This document shows positions 3,691 through 38,566 of a stretch of DNA of 38,566 bases, piece by piece. Both the position numbers and the translations under genes were made by a program. Source of the stretch: a virus; the IMG/VR virus record IMGVR_UViG_3300027833_000109, positions 1-38,566 of that record. One strand, 5' to 3'. The notes under the pieces were generated by a model that ran no database searches, was not told where the DNA came from, and saw nothing but the letters and a program-made list of their open reading frames with translations. Numbering within the stretch: the stretch's first letter is position 1; every line of letters starts with the position of its first letter.

Positions 3691-5886
3691 ATGTCTCTTT
3701 TAGAAGGCTCTTTAGCAGCATTACAAACAGGCCAACAAACGTTCGCGAATCAATACGACAAAAGGCGGCAGCGCGAAGCCCTTAAAATTAATCGTGAGCA
3801 GCAAGACAACTACAACGCAGAGGCTGCACGCATAGCGCGAAAAGATAAAGCGCGGAGTACTGTCGGCAACGTCAACGCGGCTATTGGTCAGGGTAAAGAG
3901 TGGAATAAGACAGACGGGCTAGCGTTACTTGAGCAGCGCCCCGAACTTGCTATCGAAATGTTTAACGATGACGCAAGTCAAGAATACCGCAAGTTTACGA
4001 ATGAAAACGGAGAAACCGTTGGTTCTACCGTAGTGCGCGTCGACAAGAATGCTGACGGCTCATACACACCCATGGTCGAGCGGTTTGACACGAAAGAAAT
4101 TGTGCCCATGACCGTTGGCCGAAGCGCCGAAAATACGGCAGTAGTAAAGCTCTCCCCAGAAGACGTTCAGAATACTATAAATTCACGTTATCAAGCGGCA
4201 ATCACTGACGGTGGTTTAGAAAACACTAGCAGCTTTCTATCTACTGCACAGGGTATCGTTGCTAACAGAGCTAAGCAGGCGTCGCTGGACCTCGCGACTC
4301 AGAAAATTGTAAATCAAGACGAGCGCGCGCAGTTTTATCAGCAGATAAATAATATTGATATTGAAGAAGACGGCGCTGTTGATGCTCTCTTGAGTGTGTT
4401 CAAGAGCGTTGGCGGAGATCCTGAAGCGCTAAAAGCTGAAGGCCAGGCCGCTGCAAACGAGGTGTTTGCTCAGAACCTCGAAAAAACTGATGCCTTTGCT
4501 GAAGGTTCGCTCGGAGAACGTCTACAAGCGGCTGGCGTAACACGGGAGAAGTGGGAAGCACTAACACCAGAAGAACAAGCAGAAGTCGCTGAAAGGTTGC
4601 AGGCAGGCCAGGACAAGAGCAAGTTGTTTGACGAGACAGTCGGGGCCGTAGGTGCTCGCCTTTATGATCTGGGCACTGCCCCTTTTGAAATGGCAGCTGA
4701 AGGTTTTGAGTCTCTTCAAAAAAGCTGGCTAGGGCGAAAGCTGGGTATGTCAGAGGTCACTGACTTTAACAATGAGAGCCCGAATTACGGGGAACGCGTT
4801 GAGGCAAACGAAGCAGCAATCAGGCGTGAGTCGACACCGATCACAGCCGATCGCATTGATGCAATGTACAACCCTCCTACTACCAAGACGCAGCCAGGCC
4901 GTGTACCGAAAGGCACAGGCGTGGGCGGACCAGCACCGACTCCTTCAGATCCAGTTATTGCGCCCCCTCCATTTGAACTTACAGCTGAGAATGTGCGGGA
5001 TGCCATATTGAAAAAGACAGCTAACCCGACAGATGAACAGAAAACTCAGATCAATACCTTCTTGAAAGCCAAAGGTATTGATAACGACGCTCAGCTTGAG
5101 GCCGCGCTAAAGCGGGGAGAGATAAACCGTCAAGAGGGTCTGATGCTCGGTTGGGTGTTAGGCGCTACCGCTGAAGGCGACACCAATGTAAAAGCTGGTA
5201 TTGCTCAAAACATCGAGAACCTGATTGATCGTGGAGATCAAGACGTAGGCACGTTGCAGCAGGCGCAACTTGAATCCGCCCAAGCGCAAGGCGCTGCTGC
5301 TACTAGTCAAGCACAGACTGCCTACGCTAAATTCCAGCTTGAAAACAAAAGGTATGACAGTACTCAAGCAGAAGCACTTGCTCAAACAGGTGCTGACGCC
5401 TTTCTGAAAATCCAGCAGGAGTTGGGTTTGATGGATGAAAATGGTGAGCCTACCGACAATGATTTTGAGGCGAACGACAGCCAGACGCTGAAAATAGCTC
5501 GGCGCATCCCAGGTTTCACAAAACGTTTGATGCGCGCTCAAGGCCCTCTAGAAGCGGAAGCTGGCATGGTTGCCTTGAACGGAATGCTGGGACTGTATAT
5601 GCAGGCAAAGGCAGCATCAGATCCGAATGGCATTCTTAGCGGCGAAAACTTTAAAGATATATTTAGACCAGAGCCAAATGGGTCTATCGATTTTGACGCG
5701 AATAACGTACGTGTTGCTGAGAAGAATGCCTCGGGCAACGTAACCAAAATCGCTTATGTGCGCGACGGAGTACTGAGTCAGGCAGTTACTGTTTCAGATT
5801 TAAAAGCCGATGAAGCTAGCGTTGCAGGCTTGTTGATAGCCGCTGCGAAAAAGAACGAAGAAAACGGCAAAACCGTCCCTAAATAA
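3691..5886 (+). CDS. large helical internal virion protein candidate
   Basis: A 731-residue soluble, mostly helical protein. The N-terminal 70 residues are highly charged (KRRQREALKINREQQDN). A long low-hydrophobicity body follows, with a proline-rich linker near residues 400-430 (GRVPKGTGVGGPAPTPSDP) that separates two helical halves. No enzymatic motif is visible. Gene order (small internal protein, this protein, giant lytic protein) parallels the gp14-gp15-gp16 ejection proteins of T7-type phages, so a role in the internal core and periplasmic DNA channel is a reasonable inference. It ends 11 bases before the giant gene. Confidence 0.55.
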   Translation: MSLLEGSLAALQTGQQTFANQYDKRRQREALKINREQQDNYNAEAARIARKDKARSTVGNVNAAIGQGKEWNKTDGLALLEQRPELAIEMFNDDASQEYRKFTNENGETVGSTVVRVDKNADGSYTPMVERFDTKEIVPMTVGRSAENTAVVKLSPEDVQNTINSRYQAAITDGGLENTSSFLSTAQGIVANRAKQASLDLATQKIVNQDERAQFYQQINNIDIEEDGAVDALLSVFKSVGGDPEALKAEGQAAANEVFAQNLEKTDAFAEGSLGERLQAAGVTREKWEALTPEEQAEVAERLQAGQDKSKLFDETVGAVGARLYDLGTAPFEMAAEGFESLQKSWLGRKLGMSEVTDFNNESPNYGERVEANEAAIRRESTPITADRIDAMYNPPTTKTQPGRVPKGTGVGGPAPTPSDPVIAPPPFELTAENVRDAILKKTANPTDEQKTQINTFLKAKGIDNDAQLEAALKRGEINRQEGLMLGWVLGATAEGDTNVKAGIAQNIENLIDRGDQDVGTLQQAQLESAQAQGAAATSQAQTAYAKFQLENKRYDSTQAEALAQTGADAFLKIQQELGLMDENGEPTDNDFEANDSQTLKIARRIPGFTKRLMRAQGPLEAEAGMVALNGMLGLYMQAKAASDPNGILSGENFKDIFRPEPNGSIDFDANNVRVAEKNASGNVTKIAYVRDGVLSQAVTVSDLKADEASVAGLLIAAAKKNEENGKTVPK

Positions 5887-24798: not shown

Positions 24799-25800
24799 AT
24801 GGCTACAATCCGCAAACGTGGGGGAAAGATTCAAGTGCAGATTAGACGCTTGAACTTCCCAACACAGTCAAAATCTTTTACATCTACCGCAGCAGCGAAA
24901 GCCTGGGCGCGACGCATAGAGACGAGCATGGACGACGGTTCGTGGATCGATACTCGCGAAACGCGGTCCGTGCTCATTAACGGTATTGTTGAGCAGCTTA
25001 TCCTCAGCTATGAGCGTTTTAATCTGCCTGTTGCTGGGCCAAAGCTGTCTTCACTAAAGCAGATAGAAGATCATTTCCAAGGCGTATCGATACATGATCT
25101 AACGGTAGAAGATGTCTTATTATTCGCAGCGGCACGACGTTCAAAAGTGAGCGCGAGCACGCTACAGAAACAGATGTATTATTTTAGGCAAGCTGTAAAT
25201 AACTCACGTATTAAAGCACGAGAAGACGTAGTGCAGATTGCTATAGATGAGCTAATCAAGAAGAAAATTATTCTTAGTAGCGTCTGGCGAGACCGGCGAC
25301 TGGAACCTGGTGAATATGATCGTCTTATGGACGCGGCGGGAGATCACTGGGTGGGGCACGCTATCGATATAGCATTAGAGTCTGGCATGCGACAAGGTGA
25401 AATACATGCCTTAAAGATGTCGGATATTGATTTTGATAAGGGTGTGATAAAGATTTTACGGAAGGACCCGAGAGCTGAAGGTGGCAAGAAACTGTGCAAA
25501 GTACCCCTTTTAAAGGGCGTGAGAGAGGCGGTTCTACGTACACAGAATGTAGTTGGCAGGAGCGATACCTTGTTTACTGTGAAGCACAGCGCTTCGATTT
25601 CCGACAAGTTTGCCCGTTTGACTACTAAACTGGGAATAAAAGATTTAACTTTTCATGACTTGCGTCATGAAGCTATATCGAGGATGTTTGAGCGGGGAAT
25701 GACGGTCGAGCAAGTGCGCGCGGTAAGCGGCCACACAAGCCTCGACCAATTGTCTCGTTACATAAACCTCAAGCCTGAAGATATTGCTGCTAAGTATTAA
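24799..25800 (+). CDS. int: tyrosine-family phage integrase
   Basis: A 333-residue site-specific recombinase that would insert the phage at the tRNA-like core and, with an excisionase, remove it. Residues 1-45 look like an AP2-like arm-binding domain (ATIRKRGGKIQVQIRRLNFP). Residues 60-150 are the core-binding helices. The catalytic domain has R198 in ALESGMRQGEIHALK, H286 and R289 in FHDLRHEA, H312 in VSGHTS and nucleophile Y321 in LSRYINL. AGGAGAG lies 5 bases before the ATG. The 3' end overlaps the convergent excisionase gene by 11 bases, so the two transcripts are antisense at their ends. All key residues are present, so it is probably active. Confidence 0.93.
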   Translation: MATIRKRGGKIQVQIRRLNFPTQSKSFTSTAAAKAWARRIETSMDDGSWIDTRETRSVLINGIVEQLILSYERFNLPVAGPKLSSLKQIEDHFQGVSIHDLTVEDVLLFAAARRSKVSASTLQKQMYYFRQAVNNSRIKAREDVVQIAIDELIKKKIILSSVWRDRRLEPGEYDRLMDAAGDHWVGHAIDIALESGMRQGEIHALKMSDIDFDKGVIKILRKDPRAEGGKKLCKVPLLKGVREAVLRTQNVVGRSDTLFTVKHSASISDKFARLTTKLGIKDLTFHDLRHEAISRMFERGMTVEQVRAVSGHTSLDQLSRYINLKPEDIAAKY

Positions 25801-26131: not shown

Positions 26132-26704
26132 TTATACGCAGAAAAATGAGACTACTGCCCACTTTTTGTTGATAGCTGTATCAGCCGGTAAGTCAGATTT
26201 GTGGTAGAAGCGGAGTTGCTTTTCTTTCTTTAATCTTACTGCATAAATTTTAGCTGCTGGGTATTTTGCTACTGTGCAAATTTGCGCAATGTTATCCATA
26301 CCTGGTGCGCCAATAACTAAACCTGCACTTGAGTTTTCAATGCAAGCATTTTTGCTCAGCCTGACATAAGAAGACACAGCATTCTTTCTAGTGTATACAC
26401 CGTCTTTTAAAGGTTTTGTCATGTCGTCAGATTTAAACGTTAGATTAAGTCTTTGGACATAAGGTAACTTGTCTTCAATATCAGGGTCTATTTCTGTAGG
26501 GTCTACGTCGAGAAAATTAGCGAACTTAATAATAGCTGGAGCGCCAAGCTCTGTAATGTGACTCAAATAATGGCTGATAGCGCCTTGAGACCAGTTTAAC
26601 TCTTTAGCGGCCTGTACTTGAGTGAATTGCATTTCTTGTTGCTTTTGATGCCAAATTTTACGTAGGTTATGTACTGATTGTGGTATTTGTTTTGAGTCTT
26701 TCAT
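26132..26704 (-). CDS. XRE-family repressor candidate
   Basis: A 190-residue protein. Residues 11-70 form an XRE helix-turn-helix (HNLRKIWHQKQQEMQFTQVQ then AAKELNWSQGAISHYLSHIT; recognition helix about 39-47). The C-terminal 100 residues (NACIENSSAGLVIGAPG, AKIYAVRLKKEKQLRFYHKS, WAVVSFFCV) are compatible with a divergent S24/LexA-like dimerisation domain, but I see no clear Ser-Lys protease pair. It is the likely lysogeny regulator: it lies beside int and xis and is the only XRE protein in the window. XRE dimers often bind 17-bp palindromes like those scattered in this genome. It overlaps the next upstream gene by 38 bases. Confidence 0.75.
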   Translation of the reverse strand: MKDSKQIPQSVHNLRKIWHQKQQEMQFTQVQAAKELNWSQGAISHYLSHITELGAPAIIKFANFLDVDPTEIDPDIEDKLPYVQRLNLTFKSDDMTKPLKDGVYTRKNAVSSYVRLSKNACIENSSAGLVIGAPGMDNIAQICTVAKYPAAKIYAVRLKKEKQLRFYHKSDLPADTAINKKWAVVSFFCV

Positions 26705-28277: not shown

Positions 28278-29618
28278 TTAGGCTGCTTGTTTTAGTTTGT
28301 TTAGGATTCCGAGTAGCTGGTCCATACGATCGACTTTGCCTTGCAACTTTTCGTACACGTCTGGTTCCCAGGTGTTTCGTGCTGCTATCTGAATGACCTC
28401 AGTCTTTTCAGTCTGACCGGCTCGATATATGCGTCGATTGAACTGCTGATAATGTTCTGCGTTGTAGGTAGGTGAAGCCCATATGACTGCTTTGGCTTTA
28501 GTCATAGTGAGACCGTGTCCTGCTGATTGGGGGTGACAGAACACCACCTGCAGCTGGCCTGCTTGTAACCTGTCTACAATTTCTTTGCGTTTGTGTGCGG
28601 CTGTACTGCCGTCAATAGTGGCGTGCTTGATACCTAGCTTGTCTGCTAGCTCAACCATGTACCGCTGTTCGTGCTTCCAGTTGAACGCTACGAGGGACTG
28701 TGCGCGCTCAGCTACTAGCTGCATCACTAGGTCATATCGCTCTTTGTGTATTTGTTGCACTTCGCCGTGCTCGTCGTACACAGCGCCAGTACATAATTGC
28801 AGGAGCTTTTTGACTTTACTGCCCGCGTGTACTGCATTGATTGTTGTCTGTCCGGTGTACAACACTGAGTCATCACTGAGCTGCTTGTACTGCTGCATGA
28901 TTTTCTTGGGTAGCGTTACGTACATGGTCTGTACACTTTGTTCTGGCATGTCGAGACATTCGGTTAATTCGTACCTAATGTTGATATCGCTAAGTGCAGC
29001 AGCTACTACTTCTTCTGCGTCGTCTTTTTGGACCCACTCATTAGCGAAGCCATTGAAACGCGGTGTACATACAGAAGAACGGAAGCTGTAGAAGCGATGT
29101 CCGAGTCGTTCACCGTCGTCAACGATTAACGTTGGATGCCACACGTCAAGGATGCCGTTACTGTTTGGTGTACCAGACATAGCAATGCGGTGAGTAAACG
29201 CTTCCGCAATCTTGCGGCATGCCTTGCTGCGCTGACTGTCTTTGTTCTTGAACGCTGTAAACTCGTCGATTACTAACGTGTCAAAGCCACACAAGACGTG
29301 GTAGTTTTTAGCGATCCACTTCACTGCATCGTGATTAGTAATGACAACGTCAGCATTTGATTCAATAAATGCTTTCTCACGATTCTTGGCGTACGCAACG
29401 GCGTACGTTAGATCAGGTTGGAACTTCTCGATGTCGTCGCCCCATGAGGCTTCTAAGATGGACAACGGTGCGAGAACTAAGGTTCGTGTACCGCGGTTCG
29501 CGATTGCATCGAGCACAGAGCGCGTCTTGCCAGTACCTGGGTCTGATGTAATAAGGCAGCGTGAGTTGTTATTTATGAAGTCAGTCGTGACTTTTTGATG
29601 CTCGAATGGTTCGTACAT
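28278..29618 (-). CDS. SNF2/DEAD-like superfamily 2 helicase
   Basis: A 446-residue helicase. Walker A is SDPGTGKTRSV (K31), Walker B is VIDEFT (D118-T121), motif III is AMSGTP, and the C-terminal RecA-like domain has the AGHGLTMTKA and QFNRRIYRAGQ motifs (arginine finger region near residue 400). It resembles the compact phage SNF2-type helicases that accompany family A polymerases, perhaps remodelling replication or recombination intermediates. The motifs needed for ATP hydrolysis are all present, unlike in the primase-helicase gene. The upstream intergenic segment carries a palindromic promoter/operator whose -10-like hexamer lies 24 bases before the ATG. Confidence 0.9.
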   Translation of the reverse strand: MYEPFEHQKVTTDFINNNSRCLITSDPGTGKTRSVLDAIANRGTRTLVLAPLSILEASWGDDIEKFQPDLTYAVAYAKNREKAFIESNADVVITNHDAVKWIAKNYHVLCGFDTLVIDEFTAFKNKDSQRSKACRKIAEAFTHRIAMSGTPNSNGILDVWHPTLIVDDGERLGHRFYSFRSSVCTPRFNGFANEWVQKDDAEEVVAAALSDINIRYELTECLDMPEQSVQTMYVTLPKKIMQQYKQLSDDSVLYTGQTTINAVHAGSKVKKLLQLCTGAVYDEHGEVQQIHKERYDLVMQLVAERAQSLVAFNWKHEQRYMVELADKLGIKHATIDGSTAAHKRKEIVDRLQAGQLQVVFCHPQSAGHGLTMTKAKAVIWASPTYNAEHYQQFNRRIYRAGQTEKTEVIQIAARNTWEPDVYEKLQGKVDRMDQLLGILNKLKQAA

Positions 29619-31560: not shown

Positions 31561-32310
31561 TTAGCTCACACCCCAGGTGCATTCTGGTTCGTCACCTTTA
31601 CGATGAGGACACCATCTGCAGCTGTCTTTGCTGGGTGTTGGAGCAAATTCTGTTTCAGTTGTCATTTTGACTGCACGTCTGTGGAACCCTGGTGCGAAGA
31701 CCATTGCTTGCTCACGCGTGTAAGTCTTTTTGGTAGTCTCACCTTTATCGAGATACCAGAACTCAACTTGTACAAACTGTAAGTGGGGGTATCTGAAGAA
31801 GGTGCCAATGGCGTAGAGCAGGCCTTGTTGCCCGTGGGATATTTCGTTACCCCACTTTTTGCCTGTCTTGTAGTCAATGACTCTAGCGGATGTATCGTCT
31901 TCTTGGACTAAGGCGTCGAGTTTGATACGCGCCCAGGTTTCTTTTTGCATCCAGCCGACTGTTGCCCAGTCGAGATCGAAACCCCATTCGCCTTCGTTTT
32001 CTACTTTGGCTTGTGCATAGAGTTCACGTAGTTCTTCAAACTCGTCTTTAAACTTGTGTAGCGAATCGTGCATTTCACCGGCGGTGCCATCAACATAGTC
32101 TTCAGCGTATTGGTGGATCTGCGTACCACGATCTGCAGCTGGTCCACTAGGTTCTTTAACGCCTTTGACACGGCTGATATATGTTCGATAAGCGCACTCT
32201 TCATATACTTTAAGTGCTGAGTAACTCCACGCTCTAACATCGCCTAGTGCCTTTGGTTTTTCGAAATCGATTACGTCGTCTGGTCTCGTGTCCTGAGTTA
32301 GCTTGATCAT
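31561..32310 (-). CDS. Cas4/RecB-like PD-(D/E)XK exonuclease with likely Fe-S cluster
   Basis: A 249-residue nuclease. Core motifs: H66 in RGTQIHQYAEDYV, D132 in RIKLDALVQED, D146 and K148 in ARVIDYKTGKK, and HGQQGLLYA. Cys39 near the N-terminus together with Cys231, Cys234 and Cys244 near the end form the four-cysteine pattern of the 4Fe-4S nucleases Cas4 and AddB. Phages use such enzymes for recombination, resection or packaging-associated cleavage. The gene is the last of its transcript, ended by a strong terminator. It has no CRISPR array or Cas1 beside it, so it is not part of a CRISPR system. Confidence 0.85.
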   Translation of the reverse strand: MIKLTQDTRPDDVIDFEKPKALGDVRAWSYSALKVYEECAYRTYISRVKGVKEPSGPAADRGTQIHQYAEDYVDGTAGEMHDSLHKFKDEFEELRELYAQAKVENEGEWGFDLDWATVGWMQKETWARIKLDALVQEDDTSARVIDYKTGKKWGNEISHGQQGLLYAIGTFFRYPHLQFVQVEFWYLDKGETTKKTYTREQAMVFAPGFHRRAVKMTTETEFAPTPSKDSCRWCPHRKGDEPECTWGVS

Positions 32311-32334
32311 AAAACTTTCCTAGATATAGTCTTT

Positions 32335-32355
32335 ACTATATTAGTATAGCTAATA
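32335..32355 (-). promoter_or_regulatory. palindromic promoter/operator of the Cas4-like nuclease gene
   Basis: TATTAGT-ATA-GCTAATA (32339-32355) has one mismatch to the dispersed palindrome. On the - strand it abuts TATAGT (32340-32335), 25 bases before the ATG at 32310, the same layout as at the helicase and primase genes. Confidence 0.6.
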
Positions 32356-32358
32356 ACA

Positions 32359-34782
32359 TTACCTAACAGCAAGTAACTTGCGATCCTTGTCGTCGAAGTA
32401 CTTGTTAGTGACTTCGTTAAATTGTTCTGTATCTAGTTTCCATTCAATAACTACCCCTCGAACTACGTTCGTTGATCGTGGCGCATTGTGTTCACGTTTC
32501 CGTTCTTTTGTTACGCCGCATCGAGCTGCTTTCTTTTGGAATTCGCGTTGAGACAAGCGGTCATCAGTTAGTACGCCATACACAACACGTAGATGTTCTA
32601 GCGGTACTACTGAATGAGGCCACTGAGACTCTGCTACCCACTGTTTAACAAAGCGTTGTGCGGTGGTGATTTCTTGTCCCTGTAATACGTTAGTTAAGCT
32701 TATGTCTAGTATGTCCATGAAGAACGAAAGGTTGCCATGACGTACGGCTGCGAAGAACTCTTCCATAACCGACATGGTTACTTGAGCCATCTGTGCTTTA
32801 GCGTTGTTAGCAATAGGTGTACGTACTAGCTGCTTGTTTACTTTGTAGTTGCGAAGTAATGCAGCGAACTTATGTAGCTCAGCGCTTATGTCATCGATGC
32901 CATCGATAACTTCTGGATATACATGCTCGAGCTTCTGCTCTTGGCGAGGTGCGATGTTGTATCGGCGGTCGCCTTCTTCAATCTTTACTGCATCCATTCG
33001 GTTAGTCAGGAAGATGAAGTTTGTGTAGTTAGGCATCTCAACTTGGTTAGAACGCATTGCACGGATAGTCATTGTGTTTTCTGTAATAGCGTTCTTGAGT
33101 TTGTCCGCAATCTTCATGGTGCCTGAGTTAGCTGACGCCATGTGGAACTCGTCAACTACTAAGAACAGTGCTTGTCGCATGTACAAGTTGAACTGCTCTT
33201 CGATGTTCTGTAATGCTCGCATTGGTACGTGCCAGGCGGTCATTGCTTTACGCTTAGTCTGGAAAATATATGCCAGCCAGTTGGTAAAGTGCTCAACCTC
33301 GAGGCTCTGTCCTCCCAAGATGTGAGTCATCAACTTGTAGATCAGTGGGCAAGAGTCTGCGATCTTAGCTGCGTCACCCATGCTGAGTGGTTCGTGCTCA
33401 CGTTTAGATAGCATGTATTCCGTCTTGCGGAACATGTTGATGTGGTACGGCACGTTTGCCAGGTTAACTGCAGCGTCGTCTGACGCTGGGTCAAAGACGA
33501 CTCTTGCATCAGGTATGTAGTCAGGCTTGCTTCGACCATGAGATCTCATGAATCCTTCGATGCTAGCTGATGAGCAAGGCATCAATGGGAACTCGTCGCT
33601 GAACTGATTAAGGTTGGGATCGAATACGCCGTTGTAGTATGTGTCTGTATAAAAGTCGCGCATTGCTACTGGGAAGTTAGCGCGGCCTTCTTTTTCCATT
33701 TCTTCTTGATACACATCAAATAGCGACTTGTAGAAGTCGGGGTCTGCTTGCTCGATTGACCAGATAGGTTCGCCTTTGAAGTTGAACATGTACGTGGGAT
33801 CTTCGAGCTTAAAGTAATACGCGTTGCTGTCGCCACCATTGACGTTACACCGTATGTACGGAGGGTTTGTATCGTCAGTGATGTGAATCGACATGCGGTC
33901 TGGATTAGTTAGAATCTCTTCCGACTTATTGTCGACGGTGGCAATGGTTAGGCGTTCTTTCTTTGCTTTGAACCCACGTTGAGTACGCAGTTTATTTTTG
34001 TGCTCGTTGCTTTTCTGATGCACAACTTCTGGGCTGATGTCACCCATGAGTTTTGCGAGGTCAAGCGTCTCCGTAATACCGGAAACACGCACGACCCGCT
34101 CGGAGGAGGTAGCGAACGGGTCGTGGGTTCCGTCTTCAAAGGTAGGAGGGGCAATGAAGATCAGTTTTGAGTTATCAGCTACGCTGGTATCTAACGGGTA
34201 CTTTAGTGAGTGCCCGTTACTAGATAGTTCTAGCTGTGACGAGAACAGCTGCGACTCAAAGTTGCAGTTCTGGAGCCACAGCTTTACTGCTTTGGCAGGC
34301 ATAGCGTGTGTTAACAGAATAAATATATGTAGCGATACTTTGTCACCTTTTAGCCCAAGACTAGAAGACGCTTGTGCTATGAAGCTGCAGTCTTGTACCT
34401 CTGCTGGTAGCTCGCGCATAACAGCTTTTGCTAGCGTACTGACATCTTTGTCAGTAAATGTTTTAGGGTTGGTGTGACTAGGTATCGTAATGCCGTCAAT
34501 ATCAAGTACGAGTAGATTAGAGTAACCGATACGATCGGTTTTGCCTGCTCGTGACTCGTTTTGTATTGGACGTTTAAGATTACCTTTAAGCAGGCAGTGA
34601 CCTTGTTTTCCGTGTTCACGAATGAGCTGCTCAAGTACTGACAAGCCAGCTGTATCTATTGGCAAGTCATGTTCGTGCGATGAGACGCTTTTAACGTGTG
34701 GGTATGGGGTAAAGCCCGTTTTTGGGCAGTGACGTTTGCTTAACCGCTGTCCATTAGCGGCTTCCAAAAAAGTAAGTTGCAT
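32359..34782 (-). CDS. primase-helicase (AEP + D5/SF3-like) lacking its Walker A loop
   Basis: An 807-residue replication protein. Residues about 80-260 look like an AEP-type primase (SNLLVLDIDG with metal-binding acidic residues; KVSLHIFILL). Residues 430-660 are a D5/SF3-like helicase: VEHFTNWLAYIFQTKRKAM, Walker B ALFLVVDEFHM (D544, E545), sensor FIFLTNRMDA and a GDRRYNIAP arginine region. Between TAW517-HV and PMRALQNIEEQ the expected GxxGxGK(G/S/T) Walker A segment of roughly 25-30 residues is absent; only 27 residues separate W517 from Walker B. The one GKT (RAGKTDR, near residue 80) is not in a P-loop setting. Without Walker A the helicase should not bind ATP. AGGAGGAG precedes the ATG, and a palindromic promoter lies upstream. 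Confidence 0.8.
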   Translation of the reverse strand: MQLTFLEAANGQRLSKRHCPKTGFTPYPHVKSVSSHEHDLPIDTAGLSVLEQLIREHGKQGHCLLKGNLKRPIQNESRAGKTDRIGYSNLLVLDIDGITIPSHTNPKTFTDKDVSTLAKAVMRELPAEVQDCSFIAQASSSLGLKGDKVSLHIFILLTHAMPAKAVKLWLQNCNFESQLFSSQLELSSNGHSLKYPLDTSVADNSKLIFIAPPTFEDGTHDPFATSSERVVRVSGITETLDLAKLMGDISPEVVHQKSNEHKNKLRTQRGFKAKKERLTIATVDNKSEEILTNPDRMSIHITDDTNPPYIRCNVNGGDSNAYYFKLEDPTYMFNFKGEPIWSIEQADPDFYKSLFDVYQEEMEKEGRANFPVAMRDFYTDTYYNGVFDPNLNQFSDEFPLMPCSSASIEGFMRSHGRSKPDYIPDARVVFDPASDDAAVNLANVPYHINMFRKTEYMLSKREHEPLSMGDAAKIADSCPLIYKLMTHILGGQSLEVEHFTNWLAYIFQTKRKAMTAWHVPMRALQNIEEQFNLYMRQALFLVVDEFHMASANSGTMKIADKLKNAITENTMTIRAMRSNQVEMPNYTNFIFLTNRMDAVKIEEGDRRYNIAPRQEQKLEHVYPEVIDGIDDISAELHKFAALLRNYKVNKQLVRTPIANNAKAQMAQVTMSVMEEFFAAVRHGNLSFFMDILDISLTNVLQGQEITTAQRFVKQWVAESQWPHSVVPLEHLRVVYGVLTDDRLSQREFQKKAARCGVTKERKREHNAPRSTNVVRGVVIEWKLDTEQFNEVTNKYFDDKDRKLLAVR

Positions 34783-34801
34783 GGCTCCTCCTACAGAGCA
34801 A

Positions 34802-34822
34802 AGTATATTAGCATAGCTAATA
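34802..34822 (-). promoter_or_regulatory. palindromic promoter/operator of the primase-helicase gene
   Basis: A perfect TATTAGC-ATA-GCTAATA (34806-34822) abuts, on the - strand, TATACT (34807-34802), 20 bases before the primase ATG. It lies 2 bases after the csrA stop, so the primase can be transcribed separately from the polymerase-csrA unit. Confidence 0.65.
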
Positions 34823-34823
34823 A

Positions 34824-35012
34824 TTATTTAGTAGGATTTGCGTTTTTGTCGAATACTTCCTGTCGATCAATCCGGATCTTGTTATCCGCTTCGAATGTTA
34901 AGCGGACTTGATTCCTGTCAACTTTTGAGACTGTTACTCTCGCCAGAACGCCGTTGTCATCGTGGATGACAACCTTCTCCATAAGTTTCCTTGTCAGTAC
35001 TAATCGTGGCAT
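34824..35012 (-). CDS. csrA: CsrA homologue, RNA-binding post-transcriptional regulator
   Basis: A 62-residue protein of the usual CsrA length and pattern: MPRLVLTRKLMEKVVIHDDN, then VTVSKVDRNQVRLTFEADNK and IRIDRQEVFDK. The beta-1 LTRK (Leu6, Arg8), the conserved NQVRLxFEA strand and Arg50 in the RIDRQEV strand correspond to the RNA-binding edge of CsrA dimers. CsrA blocks or stabilises mRNAs by binding GGA in hairpin loops, often at ribosome sites. The gene follows the DNA polymerase gene by 3 bases with only a weak ribosome site, so it may be translationally coupled. It could redirect host carbon metabolism or time phage translation. Targets are unknown. Confidence 0.88.
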   Translation of the reverse strand: MPRLVLTRKLMEKVVIHDDNGVLARVTVSKVDRNQVRLTFEADNKIRIDRQEVFDKNANPTK

Positions 35013-35015
35013 AAG

Positions 35016-36818
35016 TCACTTGCTGTAGCTAACGTCGTAGCCCCCTTCGGCATCTAGGGGGATGTCTTTCGCCCAATCAGGTGGTTTGCACATGTGGGTG
35101 ATAAGTTTGTCCATTGTAGCATCAGGATTATTAGCTTGGCTAATTAAAACGATTTCATCGTGGACAGTGAGCACAACTTCTGCATCGAGGTTGGTGTCTT
35201 GTTCGATACGAAGCATTGAATCAGTAACAATGATTCGTGATAACGCTTGTACTACGTTTTCTGCAATGCGTCCGCCCCAAGTAGACTCAGTAACACGAGA
35301 GTCGTACGTGAGCTTGCCGCGTTCAAAGCGCAGGTTGTTGTAGTGCAGAGCCATACCGTTAGGTAGATGTATTTTACCTTGGTGAAAACGAAGGCCGTGC
35401 CAAGTCTCGTCATACGTTGGGTTGATTGAGTTTGCGAGCTTTAGCTCCAACTTTTTCCATAATAAAGGTATACCTGAGTATGTACTGCGGTATGTATTTA
35501 CCACGTTGTAGGCTTCGTCAGTAGTGAATGTCATGGGTGGGCCCATAGCACCAGCTTCTAATGTCGTCTGGAACTTAGTTGCGCCCATGCCGTATCCGAG
35601 ACCGAGCACAGCTGTCTTACCAACGAAACGTTCTGTTGGGTCGTCGTGCTTGTTAATTGGGCGGTCGTAGATTACTGATGCAAGGTTGCTGTAGATGTCG
35701 TCGCCGTTGCGGAATTGCTGCAGCAGATCGTCTTCGTCTGCAAGCCACGCGAGCATACGGGCTTCGATGTTTGATAAGTCGGCAACGAATACGAGCTGTC
35801 CAGGCGGTGCGCACAACGCTTTGCGCAGCTCAGAGTTGCGCGGCATGTTTTGCATATTAATTTTTTCAGTACCGCCGAACCGGCCGGTATGTGCTGCGTA
35901 ATAACGAAGCGGCACGCTGATGGTCCCGTCGTCATGTGTTGCATCAATGAAGCGTTGTGCCCTGGTCTCCGCGATGCGACTCTTTACTGCTTTACGTGCA
36001 TCCCATACATGCTGAAACTGGGGGTACATGTTCTGCATTTGTTGGTAAGCTTTGTCACTCTTACCCAATGCAGGGATGTCTTTGCCTGTAGTAGGGCTGA
36101 CCTTGGTCGGCGGTACTAGGCCCATACTATATATGTGTTCTGCAAATTGTTGATTGGAGCTTAGTACTTTGCGGCACACGCCTGCTGCATCGATGAGCGC
36201 TTCATTGGCCGCGATTGTTTTATCACGGAACGTGGTTAGTCGTTCGCGGTCTACGATCAGCTTTGGTTCACAGAACATACGACAAGTGATATCTATGATG
36301 TCCATCTCTGATGTTGGCATCTGCTTGACTAGCTGTGTGAATATAGCGTGCGTAAGATCGACATCTTGTATGCAGTAGCCAGCGATCGCTTCTTCGAGTT
36401 CTGGATCGAGGTCGTAAATACCTTTTGCGTCGGCGAGTTCTTCGCCTTTGCGCATTGTTTCGTCATCAGGGAAGCAGCGTACAGCGCAGTCTTTAAGACG
36501 CGCTGACTGCCCTGGGAACAACCCGCGGTTCATTGCAGCAGTATCAACGTAATACTTTGGTATTACACCGTAGTGTCTGGTTAATATATAACCATCGAAT
36601 GGTGTGTTGTGGCAGATTGCCACAGTTTCCGGCCAATTTATGGCTAAAATAGCTGCTTCGGCTTCGTCTTCGCCGTACCATTCAGTCTCTTCATTATCAA
36701 TCTTGATGCCTACACCCCACACTTTGAATTTCTCGTGTCTGACGTAGTCCATGGTGGTTAGTTTAGTGAGTGATACTTTTGTATCGAAGTATGTTTCGAA
36801 GTCGAGAGTTACAAACAT
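35016..36818 (-). CDS. family A DNA polymerase with 3'-5' exonuclease
   Basis: A 600-residue replicative polymerase. Exonuclease: TLDFETYFD (D6, E8), CHNTPFDGY (N71, D75), GYCIQDVDLT (Y148, D152). Polymerase: motif A VFVADLSNIEARMLAWL (D347, E352), motif B RFVGKTAVLGLGYGMG (about 397-412), motif C VVLTVHDEIVL (H553, D554, E555). All catalytic residues are present and the length is normal for phage PolA-type enzymes without a 5' nuclease. Its ATG overlaps the upstream 67-residue gene (TAATG). It ends 3 bases before csrA. A variant of the dispersed palindrome lies inside its 3' part. Confidence 0.93.
   Translation of the reverse strand: MFVTLDFETYFDTKVSLTKLTTMDYVRHEKFKVWGVGIKIDNEETEWYGEDEAEAAILAINWPETVAICHNTPFDGYILTRHYGVIPKYYVDTAAMNRGLFPGQSARLKDCAVRCFPDDETMRKGEELADAKGIYDLDPELEEAIAGYCIQDVDLTHAIFTQLVKQMPTSEMDIIDITCRMFCEPKLIVDRERLTTFRDKTIAANEALIDAAGVCRKVLSSNQQFAEHIYSMGLVPPTKVSPTTGKDIPALGKSDKAYQQMQNMYPQFQHVWDARKAVKSRIAETRAQRFIDATHDDGTISVPLRYYAAHTGRFGGTEKINMQNMPRNSELRKALCAPPGQLVFVADLSNIEARMLAWLADEDDLLQQFRNGDDIYSNLASVIYDRPINKHDDPTERFVGKTAVLGLGYGMGATKFQTTLEAGAMGPPMTFTTDEAYNVVNTYRSTYSGIPLLWKKLELKLANSINPTYDETWHGLRFHQGKIHLPNGMALHYNNLRFERGKLTYDSRVTESTWGGRIAENVVQALSRIIVTDSMLRIEQDTNLDAEVVLTVHDEIVLISQANNPDATMDKLITHMCKPPDWAKDIPLDAEGGYDVSYSK
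35129..35145 (-). promoter_or_regulatory. palindrome variant inside the polymerase gene
   Basis: TATTAGC-TTG-GCTAATT matches the dispersed palindrome at all but the last arm base. It lies within polymerase coding sequence, 117 bases before the csrA start, with no clear -10 next to it. It may be an internal operator or a roadblock site, or a chance match. Confidence 0.35.
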
Positions 36819-37588: not shown

Positions 37589-38566
37589 CTATGCGGCTTC
37601 AAGTTGTATGTGCGTCGTTTGGCCCCAGGGGGCTTCGTGACGTTCTGTTGAGACCCATAGCACAGGGTAGGGCGGTTGTTCACCGAAGTCGTGTGACTCG
37701 AGGTCGGTAAGATACACAGCTGCTTCTACTTCTGGACAGTGTTCGTTGATGTAATTAAAGGCTGGGCTGAACGCAGTGCCGCCACCGCCCTTGATGGGCG
37801 TCTTTGGAAACTGATCGTCAGGCATAACTTCGTCAACGTGCGCGACTTGTGTATCTACGTGGAGAATGGTCATTTGAGATGGTCGTAACTCTGAATGAAT
37901 AGCTGACATCTCGCTCATGAACTGCTCCCAGTAGTCAGCACAAGAGCCAGATGAATCAATGATGACTGCAATCTCGCCTGCAGCTTCATTGATCATGCTT
38001 GGTAGATACTCGTCTTCACTGATGTACGCGCGGTTCGGCTTGCGCCAGCTGTAGTCGTCACGATTGAGAGACGTGCAGAACGGCCAGAGGACAGTCCGCC
38101 AGTCGACAACGGGCTTGACGATATCTTGAATGAAGCGTTCCATGTTACCTGGGAGCTTACCTGCATTTTTGGCAACTTCTGCGGCTTGAGTAACAGCTAC
38201 TTGCCAGTCGGACTCCATAGCAGCGTTGCTACCGGATTGTACTTGGCCAGCGCCTGCATCCATGACCATGCCCCACGGACACTGCTTAGGTGGGTTGTCT
38301 TTGTCGAGCTTGTTGTAGATAGCCTCGGCAGTCATGTTGTCGTACTGCTTATCAACGAGACCGCCTTCGGGTAACACAAAACCACAGTCGATAAGATGGT
38401 TGTTGATAGCGTAGTCAGTGGCGATGTTCCACAGCTTAGCGTCACGTTGCTGTCGACGAGTCATATGGTTGAAGACACAGTGCATGACCTCGTGAGCAAT
38501 GAGACCTTTGCGTGTAACGGTGTCGAGCTTACCGATGAACTTACTGTTGTAGACAAGCCGCGTACC
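37589..38566 (-). CDS. metallopeptidase/VWA-like protein (DUF2201 type), N-terminus beyond window
   Basis: The frame is open through the right edge: bases 38566-38486 continue in frame with GTRLVYNSKFIGKLDTVTRK and then GLIAHEVMHCVFNHMTRR, so the gene starts outside the window. HEVMH is a zinc-peptidase motif. The C-terminal half is a VWA-like domain: GEIAVIIDSSGSCADYWEQF (DxSxS MIDAS-like site), IKGGGGTAFSPAFNYI and AAVYLTDLESHDFG. This pairing is that of the DUF2201 family, often encoded with MoxR-type AAA+ ATPases as a chaperone or protein-processing pair; any ATPase here would lie to the right. The role in phages is unknown. Catalytic residues look intact. Confidence 0.85.
   Translation of the reverse strand, partial: GTRLVYNSKFIGKLDTVTRKGLIAHEVMHCVFNHMTRRQQRDAKLWNIATDYAINNHLIDCGFVLPEGGLVDKQYDNMTAEAIYNKLDKDNPPKQCPWGMVMDAGAGQVQSGSNAAMESDWQVAVTQAAEVAKNAGKLPGNMERFIQDIVKPVVDWRTVLWPFCTSLNRDDYSWRKPNRAYISEDEYLPSMINEAAGEIAVIIDSSGSCADYWEQFMSEMSAIHSELRPSQMTILHVDTQVAHVDEVMPDDQFPKTPIKGGGGTAFSPAFNYINEHCPEVEAAVYLTDLESHDFGEQPPYPVLWVSTERHEAPWGQTTHIQLEAA

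Follow-up and report, generated by a model that had tools for sequence, protein, structure and literature searches.

The DNA analysed here (hereafter the window) comprises the 38,566 bases of a virus record (IMG/VR IMGVR_UViG_3300027833_000109), in which no N bases, tRNA genes or Rfam matches were found. A minus-strand replication block within it encodes a DNA polymerase, a primase-helicase, an exonuclease and a SNF2-like helicase (Table 1). The primase-helicase open reading frame is uninterrupted from ATG to stop. Its helicase domain belongs to the NrS-1-like SF3 group (DUF5906), as indicated by homology (sequence match to the NrS-1 chain at 4e-15), the Walker B pair and the arginine fingers, in agreement with the SF3-type identity proposed in an earlier reading made from the letters alone (the sequence-only reading). 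The match to Pfam DUF5906 (4.4e-14) starts only at position 25 of 114 in the model, compared with position 1 in two intact relatives, L001 and L006.

The record is a fragment, because a DUF2201/VWA metallopeptidase-like gene (37589-38566) continues past its end; several relatives are longer (44-57 kb). A tyrosine-integrase-like gene lies beside a gene for an HTH protein (24799-25800 and 26132-26704), a combination that suggests a temperate phage or prophage. The protein encoded at 18115-18975 matches two adjacent stretches of relative L067 (46% and 58% identity), which may reflect a tandem paralogue in that relative.

Table 1 Features of the primase-helicase locus and neighbouring replication genes in the window.
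Feature	Position	Strand	Basis
Primase-helicase gene, 807 aa, NrS-1-like, without Walker A segment	32359..34782	-	ORF and homology
Junction W517/H518, 75 nt of relatives absent	33231..33232	-	comparison with relatives
Walker B D544/E545, retained	33148..33153	-	invariant in 38 alignment rows
T593/N594 of conserved LTN segment, retained	33001..33006	-	alignment
D605-R606-R607, retained	32962..32970	-	aligned to DRR of NrS-1 helicase domain
Family A DNA polymerase, intact	35016..36818	-	homology, relatives
PD-(D/E)XK exonuclease, intact	31561..32310	-	homology, relatives
Second helicase, SNF2-like, own P-loop DPGTGKT kept	28278..29618	-	homology, motif

The Walker A loop (GxxGxGKG) is absent from the window primase-helicase. 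The codons for W517 (33234-33232) and H518 (33231-33229) are adjacent; in relatives, this W is separated from the HVPM after it by a segment of exactly 75 nt (25 residues) containing the Walker A loop GVPGTGKG, so that the gap preserves the frame and falls exactly between codons. With the loop present in all 47 of the related loci that cover the site, loss at a single clean in-frame junction, as the sequence-only reading had described it, was confirmed, and so was its statement that the Walker B, sensor and arginine-finger regions are conserved (D544/E545, LTN and DRR are all present). R606/R607 align with the DRR arginines of NrS-1 (fingers R555/R556 in that protein), and T593/N594 of the LTN segment we take, by position, to be sensor-1-like. 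A pattern scan found no classical P-loop in any gene-sized frame of the window, although the pattern used overlooks the intact DPGTGKT of the SNF2-like helicase; retention of that motif led us to reject a genome-wide loss of P-loops. For the window protein and intact L001 alike, the predicted structures had a mean pLDDT below 50, too poor to bear on whether a hexameric ring forms.

The sequence at the junction offers little to explain the gap. An ACGTA that had been put forward as a short repeat is merely the start of the H-V-P codons, and no repeat flanks the deletion. The number of bases common to the relatives' deleted segment and the window flanks is one in 32 of 46 relatives and zero in the other 14 of 46, and we rejected a deletion or mis-join mediated by a short repeat on the strength of this overlap of just 0-1 nt. 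Among 2422 windows of 75 nt, the deletion site ranks 488th for between-strain identity; it is conserved between strains, yet other parts of the gene are more conserved, and it is not the peak of shared exact runs. A few relatives have identical copies of the missing segment, and an assembly tangle at such a strain-identical segment, given this rank and the lack of a peak, was set aside and kept only as a possibility. The nearest relative does not switch at the junction, similarity to L006 increasing about 125 nt upstream, which argues against a chimera of two strains joined exactly at this point. We also observed that the contig of one relative (L042, IMGVR_UViG_3300028396_000570; 4528-4629) stops 3 nt beyond the segment missing in the window, a single case chosen post hoc. 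The best-conserved 75-nt DNA stretch of the gene among relatives lies in its N-terminal half (34111-34185, gene nt about 598-672), with a mean pairwise identity of up to 90% versus 77% for the gene, and the DNA there may be constrained beyond protein coding.

The closest relatives of the window protein are environmental phage primase-helicases (phrog_24712; L001-L049), which share up to 90% amino acid identity with it over the whole gene and, where checked, the same replication neighbours; those of Pseudomonas phage KPP25 and Aeromonas phage phiA008 show about 28-32% identity. All relatives covering the site, KPP25 and phiA008 included, are longer than the window protein by the P-loop segment at W517. 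Searching with the window protein returned 52 loci, five of which (L044, L046, L050, L051 and L052) do not reach the deletion site. Three scans of viral sequences with seeds outside the P-loop yielded 191 loci spanning the site, corresponding to 113 distinct DNA sequences after counting identical stretches from different contigs once, and all 113 keep the P-loop; when a P-loop-seeded scan was added, the loop was kept in 115/115 distinct sequences (227 loci). Such collection searches may omit near-identical records. In a wider tally of 238 loci (two from bacterial genome contigs) plus the window, both flanks and the loop were found in 229, the upstream flank and the loop in one, neither flank in two, and no match in six; the window alone had both flanks and no loop. 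The motif G-x-x-G-T-G-K-G was invariant in 26/26 alignment rows, including relatives at 32, 29 and 23% identity (KPP25, phiA008 and NrS-1). Close homologues all lacking the P-loop at the same point, which the sequence-only reading had named as a test of the deletion, were not encountered, as every site-covering homologue keeps the loop.

A pattern search for the exact junction matched no other viral contig, and a looser pattern matched four contigs, none of which encodes a related protein. Together with the P-loop kept in 113/113 distinct sequences, this led us to reject a loss common to a clade. Among 79 full-length genes including that of the window, a gap of at least 5 aa relative to L001 was seen only in the window and in L049. 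The latter (L049:3001-5498; IMGVR_UViG_3300046167_000533) is a homologous gene lying in three frames with stops, and is a damaged or badly assembled copy. No other gaps of at least 3 aa were present in the window replication genes (31561-36818) when each was compared with its five best relatives. In the parts of the literature searched, we found no natural phage primase-helicase devoid of Walker A, and nothing specific on assembly or amplification artefacts of this kind.

By sequence, the nearest solved structures are those of the C-terminal SF3 helicase region of the NrS-1 phage polymerase (PDB 6k9c, 6k9e, 6lrb; PMC7102993), which is matched by window residues 524-690 at 58 bits and by residues 481-726 of intact L001 at 95 bits, with the DRR arginines of the two proteins aligned. 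The identity is only about 23%, and NrS-1 has a Walker A at 447-454 with K453, whereas the window protein is without the entire loop. In NrS-1, mutation of the Walker A lysine (K453A) eliminates dCTPase activity and leaves no obvious unwinding, while weak polymerisation persists, and losing NTPase or helicase activity lowers polymerisation (PMC7102993). K453A offers an analogy in which the NTP-binding function is gone and the remaining protein kept, although it is a laboratory point mutant and the window protein has a 25-residue deletion. If made, the window protein should, by this analogy, be NTPase- and helicase-dead like K453A, and its N-terminal part would possibly still be active.

Residues 518-700, the remaining ATPase domain, gave no sign of relaxed selection. 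None of the window residues in this region is private, each being found in one or more of the other rows of a 38-row alignment, and dN/dS was 0.023, 0.011 and 0.010 against L006, L003 and L001, respectively. When only sites with agreement among the four nearest relatives are counted, the window branch carries 13 synonymous and 2 non-synonymous changes over the same residues, whereas 36-46 non-synonymous changes would be expected had the whole branch been unconstrained. The fraction of the branch free of constraint has a 95% bound of 0.10-0.14, by a rough Poisson estimate with an assumed background ratio of 0.03. The balance of 13 to 2 and the absence of private residues therefore indicate that the deletion either has a technical origin or arose within roughly the last 10-14% of the branch. 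This age argument is weakened if a structural role, subject to the same constraints, was preserved in the domain; such a role, however, would not have required retention of the nucleotide-handling residues in particular.

The gap is present in this record and in no other sequence examined, and the surrounding domain is under full constraint. We put the probability that it is a one-off technical defect of the record at about 0.5. The 75 nt would have been lost during amplification of the sample DNA, sequencing or assembly, and the underlying phage population would encode an ordinary intact NrS-1-type SF3 helicase. It is this technical origin of the junction, rather than its presence in a real phage molecule, that we infer. 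A singleton loss within otherwise intact replication genes and without a trace of relaxed selection is consistent with such an artefact, as is the existence of damaged copies in the same collection, of which frameshifted L049 is an example. Against it stand a gap that is in frame, codon-exact and without N, a junction overlap of 0-1 nt that is unlike a simple overlap mis-join, a nearest relative that stays unchanged across the junction, and a site only moderately conserved between strains. Several of these features fit a real, very recent in-frame deletion instead, by which a defective phage or decaying prophage would carry a helicase-null allele of the gene, a serious contender to which we nevertheless give somewhat less than even odds. 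Its product would keep the N-terminal part and perhaps some assembly, with no NTP binding, hydrolysis or unwinding, and would rely on other helicases or on co-infection by an intact phage. Such an allele is compatible with the clean junction lacking both N and overlap, with the absence of a relatedness breakpoint, and with selection data that leave room for a loss dating from the final 10-14% or so of the branch, and the integrase and HTH genes permit a prophage state, where a null allele can survive; but no second sequence carries the junction, the replication genes hold no other indel of 3 aa or more against their five best relatives, and no repeat is there to mediate the event. We slightly prefer the artefact because a helicase-null gene should not, by analogy with NrS-1, be the majority sequence in a replicating phage, an objection that a decaying prophage state would lift. 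That one or the other of these two holds, leaving a one-off change with no lasting function, we regard as highly probable.

Explanations that give the shortened protein a function fare much worse. The sequence-only reading had rightly listed an ATP-independent scaffold alongside an assembly error and a defective genome; as a maintained natural variant, this would be a scaffold or ring that places the N-terminal enzyme while another helicase, for example the SNF2-like one, unwinds. The weak polymerisation of NrS-1 K453A without NTPase and the intact SNF2-like helicase of the window lend it some plausibility. However, polymerisation by NrS-1 drops when NTPase or helicase activity is lost (PMC7102993), and the SNF2-like helicase occurs in 16/16 relative records searched, alongside an intact primase-helicase P-loop. 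Moreover, the loss was seen in no clade or second genome (0/113 distinct homologous sequences), and the nucleotide-handling residues are retained at very low dN/dS, as in a working ATPase. With the loss private to this record and the domain constrained as an ATPase until nearly the present, a long-kept scaffold is disfavoured and, in our estimate, very unlikely. Slimmer still is the chance that the lineage has just switched to a P-loop-less, ATP-independent scaffold ring, before the remaining catalytic residues decay. Least probable of all, we consider, is a second, intact copy in a part of the genome outside the record, the shortened copy being its partner or a relic; the record is short enough relative to several relatives for some genes to be unseen, but it holds a single copy itself, and the window protein matches each relative at one place, except for frameshifted L049.

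These results suggest that the Walker A loss most likely reflects an isolated defect of this record, or else a gene copy damaged very recently, and not a new kind of enzyme. They caution that a striking motif loss can mimic a new enzyme when it is seen in just one metagenomic contig, and illustrate that, even without reads, a homologue census combined with a relaxed-selection test tells a one-off defect apart from a variant that lasts. If the junction is real, an NrS-1-type replicase would here carry a helicase-null allele of natural origin, which would let one ask whether such phages need their own motor.
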